This document shows positions 6,109 to 27,426 of a stretch of 43,423 bases of DNA, in pieces (the first letter of the stretch is position 1; each line of letters starts with the position of its first letter). The notes beneath the pieces are model-generated. The model saw only the letters and a program-made list of their open reading frames with translations, did no database searches and was not told the DNA's origin. Source of the DNA: a virus; the IMG/VR virus record IMGVR_UViG_3300020182_000066, positions 1 through 43,423 of that record; one strand, 5' to 3'. A program made the position numbers and the translations under genes.

Positions 6109-7272
6109 ATGCCTAATAAGAAGACAGCGAAAGCCAGTGCTACTAAGGCTGGCAGAGTGTCAATGAAGGATATGATATCAATCATAAATAAGAAGGCTGG
6201 TAGGAATGTCGCGCATGATTTAAACGGCGATAATCCTACGTCAGTCGACGACTGGATTCCAACTGGCTCTCGCTGGCTGGATTCAATCATTTGCAAGGGT
6301 AGAGTGGCAGGTATTCCTGTTGGCAAAGTTACGGAGATCGCAGGACTAGAATCCACAGGTAAGTCTTATATGGCTGCGCAGATTGCAGCGAACGCCCAGG
6401 AACAGGGTAAGCTTGTTGTATATTTTGATTCCGAGTCTGCCATCGACCCAAGCTTTTTAGAGCGCTCAGGGTGCGACCTGGACCGTCTGATGTACGTTCA
6501 AGCATCCTCTGTGGAGTTTGTTTTAGAGACGATTGAGGAGCTTCTTGGAGCGACCGATGAGAAACTTGTGTTTATTTGGGACTCATTAGCGTTCACTCCA
6601 TCGATTTCAGATATAGAGGGAGACTTTAATCCTCAGTCATCGATGGCGGTGAAGCCTAGGATCCTTGCGAAGGGGATGTCAAAATTGACGATTCCTCTTG
6701 CGGATAAACAGGCTACTTTGATTGTATTAAATCAGCTAAAGACTAATATTCCGCAGGGACCAAATGCTAGAGTTGTGGCGATGACAACGCCCTATGTAAC
6801 CCCCGGTGGCAAGGCGATGCACTATGCATATTCGCTGCGAATTTGGCTTACCGGTAGAAAGGCAAAGTCATCATTCATCGAGGATGACAAGGGATTCCGC
6901 ATTGGTTCAGAGGTTAAAGTTAAACTTGAAAAGTCCCGATTCGGAACCCAAGGTCGTTCGTGCGCTTTCCGAATTCTATGGGGAACGGATCAGATCGGTA
7001 TCCGCTGTGATGAAAGTCTTTTTGACGCACTCAAGGGCTCGGACTGCTTGACCTCAGCTGGTTCTTGGTATACTTTTTCTGCATTGAATGGCTATAGTAA
7101 GAAATTTCAACCTTCGAAGTGGGCAGATCTTATGGCAAGTGACGCTGAGTTCAAAAAGAACGTTTATAAAGTTTTCGACACAGAGATGGTTCAAAAGTTT
7201 GCTAAGCGAGAAGGCAGTGCTAGTGCCTTTTATGCAGATCCGGAAGATCTTACCGTCCCAGTTAAAGATTAA
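6109..7272 (+). CDS. uvsX: UvsX/RecA-type recombinase
   Basis: 387 residues, close to T4 UvsX (391). Walker A is GLESTGKS (79-86). The Walker B strand ends KLVFIWDSLA. The DNA-binding loop region with NIPQGPNARVVAMTTPYVTPGGKA and the following core strands match RecA-family order. The protein forms helical filaments on ssDNA and drives strand exchange, repair and recombination-dependent replication, working with the gp32-like SSB. The start has a perfect AGGAGGG. It follows the nuclease gene by 15 bases and is probably cotranscribed. The stop lies 22 bases before the next promoter. Confidence 0.9.
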   Translation: MPNKKTAKASATKAGRVSMKDMISIINKKAGRNVAHDLNGDNPTSVDDWIPTGSRWLDSIICKGRVAGIPVGKVTEIAGLESTGKSYMAAQIAANAQEQGKLVVYFDSESAIDPSFLERSGCDLDRLMYVQASSVEFVLETIEELLGATDEKLVFIWDSLAFTPSISDIEGDFNPQSSMAVKPRILAKGMSKLTIPLADKQATLIVLNQLKTNIPQGPNARVVAMTTPYVTPGGKAMHYAYSLRIWLTGRKAKSSFIEDDKGFRIGSEVKVKLEKSRFGTQGRSCAFRILWGTDQIGIRCDESLFDALKGSDCLTSAGSWYTFSALNGYSKKFQPSKWADLMASDAEFKKNVYKVFDTEMVQKFAKREGSASAFYADPEDLTVPVKD

Positions 7273-7294: not shown

Positions 7295-7323
7295 TTGACT
7301 TGAGCCTCCCATTTGGTTATAAT
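7295..7323 (+). promoter_or_regulatory. Sigma-70-type promoter before the deaminase gene
   Basis: TTGACT at 7295-7300, a 17-base spacer and TATAAT at 7318-7323. The transcript should start near 7330. It is preceded by AGAAAGTAG; the 16-base block AGAAAGTAGTTGACTT at 7286-7301 is identical to 22263-22278. Confidence 0.85.
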
Positions 7324-7350
7324 AGATATAATCACTTGGGAGGTTCTTTT
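7302..7350 (+). terminator. Hairpin enclosing the promoter and the ribosome site
   Basis: Bases 7302-7311 (GAGCCTCCCA) can pair with 7337-7346 (TGGGAGGTTC) for 10 bp including one G-T, followed by TTTT at 7347-7350. The 5' arm is in the promoter spacer, while the 3' arm contains the GGGAGG ribosome site of the next gene. RNA from upstream can fold it; RNA started near 7330 cannot. It could terminate uvsX transcription, hide the ribosome site in long RNAs, or both. Confidence 0.6.
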
Positions 7351-7354
7351 GTCA

Positions 7355-7792
7355 ATGTTTAGCGGTGAATATAACTATGCTACGATTACCACTCAGAGAA
7401 AGTACACAGGTCGAGTTAGAAGGTTTATAGATCTTGCAGCCAAGATGGCAAACCAATCATGCGATCCCGTTAATCGCCATGGCGCTGTTCTCGTAAAGGG
7501 CTCTTCTGTACTGAACGCCAGCCACAATAAGAACAGCTTCTGTTCATTCGGGCAGCGCTTCAGGGAGAAGGGAACTGGAGTCTCAACTATGCACGCTGAA
7601 CTTGGGGCTATATTGGGAATGGACAGAAAAATCACAGAGGGAGCCACAGTGTATGTGGCGCGACTCGGAAAGAGGGGGAACTTGAAGCTCTCAAAGCCTT
7701 GTTCTATGTGTTATTCTGCGATGAAGCACGTGGGAATCAAGAAAGTGGTCTACACGATCAACGGAGAAGTAGCAGGGGTCTACAAGATGTAA
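7355..7792 (+). CDS. Zinc-dependent cytidine/deoxycytidylate deaminase-like protein
   Basis: 145 residues from ATG 7355. The catalytic zinc signature is HAE (80-82) and PCSMC (115-119), as in the cytidine/dCMP deaminase superfamily, where the Glu is the proton shuttle. dCMP deaminase would feed dUMP to the ThyX encoded nearby, though other deaminases, including ones acting on RNA or free bases, share the motif. An in-frame upstream ATG at 7313 is rejected because it lies inside the promoter and before the expected transcript start. TTG at 7349 is a possible alternative start, 5 bases from GGGAGG; ATG 7355 is 11 bases away. It is expressed from its own promoter. Confidence 0.75.
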   Translation: MFSGEYNYATITTQRKYTGRVRRFIDLAAKMANQSCDPVNRHGAVLVKGSSVLNASHNKNSFCSFGQRFREKGTGVSTMHAELGAILGMDRKITEGATVYVARLGKRGNLKLSKPCSMCYSAMKHVGIKKVVYTINGEVAGVYKM

Positions 7793-7799
7793 AGATCCT

Positions 7800-7823
7800 G
7801 TCAACGGGAGCAATATCGTTGAC
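7800..7823 (+). promoter_or_regulatory. Inverted repeat overlapping the -35 of the uvsE promoter
   Basis: GTCAACG (7800-7806) and CGTTGAC (7817-7823) are a perfect 7-bp inverted repeat with a 10-base loop. The 3' arm includes most of the -35 element. No T-run follows. It could be an operator or a 3'-end hairpin for the deaminase mRNA. Confidence 0.5.
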
Positions 7824-7847
7824 ATTTGACGGTAATTGTTCTATACT
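7819..7847 (+). promoter_or_regulatory. Sigma-70-type promoter of the uvsE gene
   Basis: TTGACA at 7819-7824, a 17-base spacer and TATACT at 7842-7847. The leader is about 18 bases and holds AAGGAGAG before the start at 7872. Confidence 0.8.
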
Positions 7848-10458: not shown

Positions 10459-10583
10459 AGAAAGTGAGAGAAATAAGAAGTCTTATTCCGAGTCGGAATT
10501 AGCCAGCAAAAACTAGCAGAAACGCTTAGGTGCCCGAAAGGGCGTATGAAGCATATTCTAAAAAACAGTTCACGGAGAGAAGA
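10459..10583 (+). promoter_or_regulatory. Long structured mRNA leader of the 5' nuclease gene
   Basis: No gene is supported in 10420-10583. Two strong hairpins are visible. Bases 10482-10502 fold with ATTCCG/CGGAAT plus two outer pairs after one mismatch. The second, near 10525-10552, is GTGCCC-GAAA-GGGCGT, a stem capped by a GNRA-type loop, enclosed by GCTT/AAGC. The second repeats the inverted repeat in the promoter spacer. A riboswitch, an autoregulatory site or a processing signal are all possible; no known class was recognised. The 5' nuclease frame runs through the end of this leader from GTG 10530, but the ATG at 10584 has the better ribosome site. Confidence 0.5.
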
Positions 10584-11582
10584 ATGAGCGAAGAAGACAA
10601 GACAAAAAGAGTTCTAATAATAGACGGAGCAAATGCCGTTATACGTGCATATATAGTTGATCCTAGCCTGTCTCATCACGGACAGCCGATTGGTGGACTA
10701 AAAGGGTTTATCAAGATTCTTCAAAAGCTAGTACGCCAGACAAAGCCAGATTCGATTGTTGTTTGTTGGGATGGGGCTAATGGTTCCAAGAAGCGTAAAG
10801 ATATGGATAAGAACTATAAGGCAGGTCGCAAGCCAATCCGCCTGAATCGAGCCCACCACAACCTGACTGACGATGAGGAGCTTAAGAATAAGATCTGGCA
10901 ACAGACTCGACTGATGGAATACCTTAATAATATGCCAATCATTCAGTCGATCTTGCCAGAGATCGAAGCTGACGATATAATTTCATATGTTTGCTCAATG
11001 GAGCATTACGCAGATTATCAGAAGATTATCGTCTCCAACGATAAAGACTTTATGCAAATTTGTAGTGAGATGACCGTTCTATGGCGTCCAGTAAAGGACG
11101 AGATCCTAAACTCTAAGAGGATCGTAGAGCAAACAGGCGTTCATCCGACCAATATGGCACTAGCGAGAGCAATTATTGGAGACTCCTCTGATAATCTCCC
11201 TGGAGTGAAGGGTGCTGGATTCAAAACCGTAGCTAAGCGTATGGGTTTCCTATCAGAGAGCCAGACGTACACAATCGATGAAGTTATGGAACACTGCGCA
11301 GAGAAGTCTATCACCAGTAATCTAAAGTTCTACCAGAACGTATTAGAAAACAAGGAGCTTATCGAGCACAACTATAAGATGATGCAACTGTACTCGCCTC
11401 AAATGTCTATCCAATCAAAGATTCATGTCAAGGAATCGATAGAGAACTTTGAATGTGATTTCAATAAAACAGAGATCATTCGACTTATGCGCGAAGATGG
11501 TTTTGGTGAACTAAACTGGGGAGATCTCAAGGGACACTTAAACAGGATCTCCGTTGATTGTGTAGATATGACAAATGAATAA
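10584..11582 (+). CDS. 5'-3' exonuclease / RNase H-like flap nuclease
   Basis: 332 residues. The FEN/PIN nuclease acidic residues are in place: LIIDGAN at the N-terminus, VCWDGANGSKKRK, EIEADDIIS, SNDKDFMQI, and GDSSDNLPGVKGAGFKTV, which combines the last acidic residues with the helix-hairpin-helix. This is the T4 RNase H and Pol I 5'-nuclease family; it removes RNA primers and flaps on the lagging strand. Since the family A polymerase here has no 5' nuclease domain, this gene supplies that activity. ATG 10584 is chosen because GGAGAG lies just upstream. GTG 10530 would add 18 residues encoded by the structured leader and is less likely. Confidence 0.85.
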   Translation: MSEEDKTKRVLIIDGANAVIRAYIVDPSLSHHGQPIGGLKGFIKILQKLVRQTKPDSIVVCWDGANGSKKRKDMDKNYKAGRKPIRLNRAHHNLTDDEELKNKIWQQTRLMEYLNNMPIIQSILPEIEADDIISYVCSMEHYADYQKIIVSNDKDFMQICSEMTVLWRPVKDEILNSKRIVEQTGVHPTNMALARAIIGDSSDNLPGVKGAGFKTVAKRMGFLSESQTYTIDEVMEHCAEKSITSNLKFYQNVLENKELIEHNYKMMQLYSPQMSIQSKIHVKESIENFECDFNKTEIIRLMREDGFGELNWGDLKGHLNRISVDCVDMTNE

Positions 11583-26267: not shown

Positions 26268-26945
26268 ATGGCTCGTAAAACATTATTGACAGAAGGCGAG
26301 ATCCGCCAATTTATAAAGCTCGCTAACTTAACAAATGTTAGCGATGGTAAAATCCAAGAAATGTACGGAGGCGGGACCGCTTATGGTCGCGACGAGGAAG
26401 ATACGATGGAAGAGGGCCCCGAAGATGGTCCCGAAGAACTAGATATGGCGGTATCAGACCCAGACGCTGAGGACGAGCTTGATGGTGAGATGGGGGCAGA
26501 GATGGGTCCAGAAATGGCTGATGACGCCATGGATATGGACGCAGCAGATTCCATGGATGTTTCAGAGCGTGAAGCCTTGATGGCTGACGTTGTGGCAGCA
26601 GTTGCTCAGGCTCTTGGTATCGAAGACCGTGTTGATGTAGAGGCTTCTGACGAAGACGATATGGGCGATATGGACGACATGGGAGTGGATATGGGTATGG
26701 ACGATATGGGCGATCTTGAAGAGCCAGACCTCGGGGCACCAGAAGGAGGTGATGATCTATCACTAGCCGACGAGGAGGAAGAGGACGAAGAGCTACCCCA
26801 AGATCTCGAAATGAAGAACGACGAGTTAGTTGCTGAGGTAGCCCGCCGCGTGGCTAGCCGCCTTAAGAACGAGCAAAGCCGTGAGGTTATGGTTGATACC
26901 CTAGCCGAAAGAATCATGAAGAGGTTAACCGCAACTAACACTTGA
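26268..26945 (+). CDS. Highly acidic Asp/Glu/Met-rich protein
   Basis: 225 residues. It starts MARKTLLTEGEIRQFIKLANL, a basic-then-helical head. Residues 45-175 are an extremely acidic low-complexity stretch (repeated DDMG, EEEDEE). A helical basic tail follows (VAEVARRVASRLKNEQSR, AERIMKRL). The layout resembles phage scaffold or prohead-core proteins, which are acidic and helical and are removed by a protease; a ClpP-like protease gene lies close by. No family was firmly recognised. AAGGAG precedes the start. The upstream 66 bases are AT-rich without a sigma-70 -35. Confidence 0.65.
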   Translation: MARKTLLTEGEIRQFIKLANLTNVSDGKIQEMYGGGTAYGRDEEDTMEEGPEDGPEELDMAVSDPDAEDELDGEMGAEMGPEMADDAMDMDAADSMDVSEREALMADVVAAVAQALGIEDRVDVEASDEDDMGDMDDMGVDMGMDDMGDLEEPDLGAPEGGDDLSLADEEEEDEELPQDLEMKNDELVAEVARRVASRLKNEQSREVMVDTLAERIMKRLTATNT

Positions 26946-26970
26946 CAAAGTGTTTTTGTAGAGTTATAAT
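26942..26970 (+). promoter_or_regulatory. Consensus sigma-70 promoter overlapping a terminator
   Basis: TTGACA at 26942-26947, a 17-base spacer and TATAAT at 26965-26970: a perfect match. The -35 overlaps the stop of the acidic-protein gene, and the -10 touches the 5' arm of the terminator hairpin. Confidence 0.85.
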
Positions 26971-27008
26971 AACCACTATAGCCTAGGCTTTAGTGGTTAT
27001 TTTTTTTG
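26969..27008 (+). terminator. Intrinsic terminator overlapping the next promoter
   Basis: ATAACCACTA (26969-26978) pairs with TAGTGGTTAT (26991-27000) as a perfect 10-bp stem, followed by an eight-T run. The loop holds AGCCTAGGCT. RNA begun at the overlapping promoter (near 26977) lacks most of the 5' arm and should escape it. Confidence 0.85.
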
Positions 27009-27015
27009 GAGTATC

Positions 27016-27426
27016 ATGGATATTTTGCTGTACCCCCTGTTGTTTTTTGTTGGTTATTACACTTGCAAATTTTCTAACCTATATCGGACAGCTAATGATA
27101 GCGTCGTAATGATAAAAGTGTCCCAATTGTCTTCCCTGTTGCTATATACTAGAGCGATAGAGCAGTATTCATATGTGAGGACGTTCGTGGCTAATATGAT
27201 TAAAAGCGATGGAGGATCAGACAGGGAGATTGAGAGCTTTCAAAAATATGTCGACAACGACATAGAATATTTTAAGAGTCAATCAATAAAGCAGATGAAT
27301 CTGTGTATATCGCCAATGTTCAGTGATGATATAAAAGTAGCTGACTGGGACGCCGGAATGGCGTTATTGGAAAGTGAAAAGGAAACTGTACGACAAATTT
27401 TTATAAATAGGAGTAAAGACAAATGA
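27016..27426 (+). CDS. Unknown protein with N-terminal membrane anchor
   Basis: 136 residues. A hydrophobic helix at 3-17 (ILLYPLLFFVGYYTC) without a cleavage site suggests a membrane anchor. The rest is helical and charged. No family was recognised. It is the first gene after the consensus promoter; GGAG precedes the start. It overlaps the ClpP-like gene by ATGA, so the two are coupled and may be functionally linked, for example by placing the protease at a membrane; this is inference. Confidence 0.65.
   Translation: MDILLYPLLFFVGYYTCKFSNLYRTANDSVVMIKVSQLSSLLLYTRAIEQYSYVRTFVANMIKSDGGSDREIESFQKYVDNDIEYFKSQSIKQMNLCISPMFSDDIKVADWDAGMALLESEKETVRQIFINRSKDK

Follow-up and report, generated by a model that had tools for sequence, protein, structure and literature searches.

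Translation of a phage dCMP deaminase gene probably depends on where its RNA was begun. As modelled from the sequence, RNA running in from the gene upstream would fold into a hairpin that buries the ribosome site, and RNA from the promoter of the gene itself would leave that site open. Phage genes lie head to tail, so that transcription of one gene runs into the next. The element described here, in which one arm of the hairpin (hereafter the lock) lies inside the spacer of a sigma-70 promoter, comes from a 43.4-kb fragment of an uncultivated phage (the window, that is, the whole stretch of 43,423 nucleotides analysed). Judged by sequence comparison, it is conserved in many marine phages, where it also heads exonuclease genes.

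The element lies in a cluster of DNA-metabolism genes encoding Dam methylase, UvsX, dCMP deaminase, UvdE, ThyX, a 5′-3′ exonuclease, DnaB and ribonucleotide reductase. Upstream lies uvsX, the predicted source of read-through RNA, its stop codon 22 nt from the -35 box. The window's DNA, searched against phage isolates, gave no match; its deaminase protein occurs at 100% identity in three viral contigs. The features of the locus are as follows.

6109-7272, plus strand: uvsX/RecA-like recombinase gene (Pfam RecA, 4.9e-35; phrog_97, UvsX-like)
7295-7300, plus strand: -35 box TTGACT, of which TTGAC doubles as the 5′ side of the lower helix
7302-7311, plus strand: 5′ arm, complementary to the Shine-Dalgarno sequence (anti-SD), within the promoter spacer (folding, covariation)
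7314-7334, plus strand: inner helix 7314-7321/7327-7334, including the -10 region (folding)
7318-7323, plus strand: -10 box TATAAT, after a 17-nt spacer
7330, plus strand: predicted transcript start, placed 7 nt after the -10 box by promoter geometry
7337-7346, plus strand: 3′ arm, including the ribosome site (folding, covariation)
7338-7343, plus strand: Shine-Dalgarno (SD) sequence GGGAGG, predicted to be masked in the long RNA and mostly open in the short RNA
7347-7350, plus strand: T-run after the stem, a possible accessory terminator tract (TTCTTTTG from 7344, six T in eight)
7349-7351, plus strand: TTG start codon; relatives have TTG, GTG or ATG at the same place
7349-7792, plus strand: dCMP/cytidine deaminase gene, 147 aa (Pfam PF00383, 6.5e-12; phrog_174 dCMP deaminase, 1.1e-17)
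7351-7355, plus strand: 3′ side of the lower helix, GUCAA, predicted to pair with the -35 sequence in the long RNA (folding)

The promoter, TTGACT-17-TATAAT at 7295-7323, carries 11 of the 12 consensus letters, in keeping with the good, sigma-70-type promoter that the sequence-only reading had placed inside the hairpin; the spacer is 17 nt in all related elements, and the window shows no enrichment of the T4-type late motif TATAAATA. That reading had also described a 10-bp stem followed by TTTT, with GGGAGG inside its 3′ arm, and its coordinates are all correct: the stem is real and consists of nine Watson-Crick pairs and one G-U. Its account of the extent of the hairpin was incomplete, as the stem is only the middle helix of a three-part structure spanning 7295-7355, in which a lower helix (UUGAC 7295-7299/GUCAA 7351-7355) and an inner helix (7314-7321/7327-7334) had been missed.

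We place the deaminase start at TTG 7349, five nt after GGAGG. A TTG at this position is the sole in-frame start candidate in L004, L005, L007-L009 and L011, and L013/L014 have GTG there. The gene starts neither with the longer open reading frame, at 7313, nor at ATG 7355, which lacks conservation. A non-ATG deaminase start is common in this clade.

The sequence-only reading had proposed folding both RNAs, and the models separate them. At 37 °C, the whole hairpin (RNA 7295-7360) has a minimum free energy of -30.4 kcal/mol, against -11.4 +/- 2.9 for dinucleotide shuffles (z -6.5; matched by 0 of 200 shuffles), whereas RNA from 7330 has no notable structure (z +1.4). The 5′ strand of the hairpin, 7295-7321, lies entirely upstream of the predicted start. 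In partition-function calculations, the SD is never free in long RNA from upstream (unpaired probability 0.00); in RNA from 7330 the unpaired probabilities across 7338-7343 are 0.01, 0.43, 0.90, 0.91, 0.96 and 0.98, so that five of the six bases reach 0.43-0.98, with the TTG start codon itself partly paired in the model (0.15, 0.83 and 0.12). Resting as they do on sequence and predicted folding, these values agree with the claim that RNA from upstream would be locked and RNA from about 7330 free.

Relatives of the gene were collected by protein homology, and the deaminases among them share about 45-65% amino-acid identity. They keep the same order of parts: TTGAC, an anti-SD arm in a 17-nt spacer, the -10 box, the SD arm and the start codon. 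A second gene, the 5′-3′ exonuclease of the same cluster, carries the element in two forms; in one of these, type A, the six-nt hairpin loop is exactly the -10 hexamer, closed by a stem of 12-13 pairs. All 72 elements directly follow a co-directional reading frame, whose end lies anywhere from 22 nt before to 4 nt after the -35 box; both arms would therefore be present on any read-through RNA.

The DnaB helicase promoters of these phages, which share the geometry, served as controls. When spacers were shuffled, the median z was -4.1 for deaminase elements (a class in which a few entries are duplicates and one is an unrelated gene of the window), -4.9 for exonuclease elements and +0.3 for the helicase controls, none of which (0 of 61) fell below -3. 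The median unpaired probability of the SD in long and short RNA, respectively, was 0.00 and 0.51 for deaminase, 0.00 and 0.53 for exonuclease, and 0.56 and 0.63 for the helicase controls. Counting any pairs that span the -10 box gave no separation (123 real against 115 expected from shuffled spacers), and energy z-scores were used instead. The arms change while pairing is kept, with about 65 distinct arm pairs across the elements. In the type A exonuclease alignment 97.4% of cells are paired and there are 6 two-sided changes against 0.9 in shuffles; in a deaminase alignment, two-sided changes occur in 5 of 10 pairs, in 10 cells against 2.6. Alignments A4 and A5, which have mixed stem registers, were excluded from the counting.

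The hairpin also depends on the promoter. Across deaminase and exonuclease genes, 75 of the 79 distinct starts that have a promoter close by also have the hairpin, and none of the 26 starts lacking such a promoter does (Fisher p 9e-21, a nominal value since the rows are related). Several of the starts that lack both belong to exonuclease genes directly behind the deaminase gene. On the exonuclease tree, promoter and hairpin change seven times each, and the supported independent pairs are concordant in five of five (p 0.0625). A few deaminase elements have a promoter and no hairpin (L232, L293 and L016) or fold no better than their spacer shuffles (L235, L271 and L273). The element is absent from the isolate exonuclease relatives in Microcystis phage Mel-JY01, Flavobacterium phage immuto and the uncultured LR756508; the Mel-JY01 gene has a hairpin at that place and no recognized promoter.

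The absence of the SD contrast from helicase controls, the compensatory changes and the restriction of the hairpin to starts with a close promoter together lend weight to the logic first put forward for this locus, in which the origin of the RNA would decide its translation. We propose that read-through RNA from uvsX, carrying both arms, would fold into the hairpin and bury the SD, together with part of the start-codon region in the deaminase family, and that ribosomes would be unable to load on it. RNA begun at the sigma-70 promoter, at about 7330, would start past the whole 5′ arm, making the hairpin impossible, and would present an open SD behind a leader of 12-19 nt. With the long RNA locked and the own-promoter RNA open, the gene would be insulated from read-through, its dose and timing set by its own promoter.

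The alternative that fares best, though we consider it unlikely, is that the element, with the promoter in the loop, acts mainly as an intrinsic terminator, at which uvsX RNA would end in the T-tract before the start codon, with SD masking as a by-product. The window's own stem is followed by the T-rich TTCTTTTG, L270 (from the same contig as L011) has eight T, and 22 of the 44 deaminase rows, as compared with none of the 55 helicase controls, have T-rich tails. A clear case of such an arrangement also exists in the window, at 26942-27015 (promoter, stem 26968-27001, T8). The level of six T in the eight nt after the stem is, however, reached by just half of the deaminase rows and, among exonuclease rows, by 2 of 28 (24 of 72 rows overall); type A exonuclease elements end in GGAGGTAATCTATG, with no tract, and yet have strong stems; and the window element is absent from the scanner's terminator list. 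A terminator, moreover, has no need of a ribosome site under its 3′ arm, and this is the feature common to the elements. T-richness over the eight positions after the stem is 5.3 for deaminase and 4.4 for exonuclease elements against 2.8 for the helicase control, and some termination is therefore likely in a subset, where the tract may also end read-through RNA. With a T-tract in only about a third of elements, termination is probably an accessory at most.

The locus at 26942-27015 combines a perfect sigma-70 promoter (12 of 12) with an overlapping 17-bp stem at 26968-27001, a T-run and GGAG, followed by the gene at 27016. RNA from upstream is predicted to fold there in a terminator-like manner, as RNA from about 26977 cannot (-29.6 vs -9.0 kcal/mol), and the same insulation as in the deaminase element is apparently reached by termination.

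Less probable is a palindrome that acts at the DNA level, as a dimeric-repressor operator or a cruciform at the promoter. The repeat is centred near the -10 box, as are the operator-like palindromes of antitoxin-like genes (L403 and L475), but it extends to the SD, and some 65 arm pairs with pairing kept are unlike a protein half-site. In 65 of 72 elements the predicted fold of the sense strand is more stable than that of the antisense (medians -24.2 and -18.7), an asymmetry partly forced by the G-rich SD. G-U pairs are abundant: 120 have their G in the 5′ arm, an arrangement not imposed by the SD, and 56 have it in the 3′ arm. Thus neither the conserved half-site nor the lack of strand preference expected of a DNA operator was found. 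Together, the changing arms, the strand comparison and the G-U pairs favour selection on RNA over a protein-binding palindrome, as far as sequence comparison can tell. The strand comparison took the place of a Watson-Crick-scored mismatch count (G-U over A-C, 61 to 25), which is confounded by shared descent and the G-rich SD. In bacterial genomes, the antitoxin-like genes matched by the element's DNA pattern (L376, L403 and L475) have palindromes that resemble autoregulatory operators, a source of false positives for wider scans.

Least probable is a regulated switch, with a ligand, temperature, a protein or a ribosome finishing uvsX opening the long RNA: stable SD-masking hairpins are the output part of many switches, and the deaminase contributes to dTTP synthesis, with ThyX encoded nearby, but an Rfam search of the element for known structured RNA families found none at E 5 or better, no conserved unpaired motif was seen besides the promoter, and the type A stem of 12-13 pairs with the -10 box as its loop leaves no room for an aptamer. 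An N4-type hairpin promoter was set aside, a normal -35/-10 pair being present, as was a bidirectional promoter, because the minus-strand TTGACA in the window mirrors the start-codon pairing.

The proposed dependence on RNA origin has precedents in phage T4, and the comparison with genes e and soc made in the sequence-only reading is apt; the homing endonuclease gene I-TevI, segB and Aeh1 mobE are equally close (PMC3014915, PMC2988022). In this group of ribosome-binding-site-sequestering hairpins with an internal promoter, a long RNA begun upstream hides the SD or start codon in a hairpin, and a promoter within the 5′ part of the hairpin yields an RNA that lacks it and is translated; these internal promoters are mostly late (TATAAATA for e), giving a late switch (PMC3014915, PMC2988022). 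The deaminase element resembles them in that the SD is predicted to be paired in upstream RNA (0.00 unpaired; -30.4 kcal/mol, z -6.5) and the own-promoter RNA would lack the 5′ arm (5′ strand 7295-7321, before the predicted 7330). It differs in having, in place of a late promoter, a full sigma-70 -35/-10 pair whose 17-nt spacer accommodates the anti-SD arm, and in serving DNA-metabolism genes, where the T4-type cases concern lysis, capsid and endonuclease genes. In the fold-back inhibition of IS10 and IS50 transposase, transcripts that enter from outside promoters have their ribosome site masked and own-promoter RNA is free, with the 5′ arm near the element end and not within the promoter spacer; the gene here is a dCMP deaminase among phage replication genes, not a transposase. 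Intrinsic terminators that overlap a promoter likewise insulate from upstream transcription by a hairpin and T-run, as the T-rich tails of a subset of elements recall, but most elements lack a good T-tract and their stem masks the SD. In the literature searched, with subscription journals largely outside its reach, neither the sigma-70 spacer form nor conservation with changing arms over many phages turned up. As far as we have found, there is no precedent for a sigma-70 promoter whose spacer contains a masking arm and which recurs on replication genes.

We advance more tentatively, as a possibility with less than even chances, that this is a general gene-start module of about 55 bp in phages and bacteria, in which a sigma-70 spacer holds the anti-SD arm and only own-promoter RNA would be translated. 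It would cover the deaminase, exonuclease and rarer UV-repair genes of marine phages, unrelated genes in other viral contigs and a minority of bacterial pattern matches. Most of the matches obtained by pattern scanning of viral contigs belong to the exonuclease family, and further ones precede unrelated genes; among bacterial-genome matches, 10 of 112 distinct ones extend the seed by at least six pairs, where about 0.3 would be expected with random bases, and some of the bacterial matches may instead be operators. If true, phages would possess a compact device to ignore read-through, with promoter, lock and ribosome site in about 55 bp. A handful of T4 curiosities would become a widespread rule, phage genes set by their own promoter could be predicted from sequence, and a ready-made insulated promoter part would be at hand. 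The question raised is why the exonuclease and deaminase would need such strict control and the neighbouring helicase or uvsX would not.

The exonuclease genes include a natural experiment, in which an endonuclease gene is inserted behind the lock or remnants of it lie ahead of the exonuclease. In L154 (2123-3001) and L181 (type A), the interval from the lock SD to the exonuclease start is occupied exactly by a GIY-YIG/NUMOD3 homing-type endonuclease gene; in L173, L175 and L177 only its 3′ end is left in front of the exonuclease, as a decayed remnant. The window at 10501-10587 reads SQQKLAETLRCPKGRMKHILKNSSRREE, an endonuclease 3′ remnant whose stop overlaps the exonuclease ATG at 10584, and the exonuclease has its ribosome site within the remnant and no lock. 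In the window, the device is thus confined to the deaminase, of these two genes.

Similar structures were seen at other genes. A pyrimidine-dimer DNA glycosylase gene (PF03013; L216:2540-2950) also has a lock, the UvdE promoters of L197 and L200 have a lock-like hairpin over the SD, and in the window an inverted repeat, TGTCAACG..CGTTGACA at 7801-7826, surrounds the -35 box of the UvdE promoter. A small gene of 66-67 aa (KTHH..CGAC.KV), for which the L075 copy gave no Pfam match, stands behind a lock in L075, L133, L313, L321, L332, L338 and L360, and that lock is nearly identical to exonuclease locks in related contigs.
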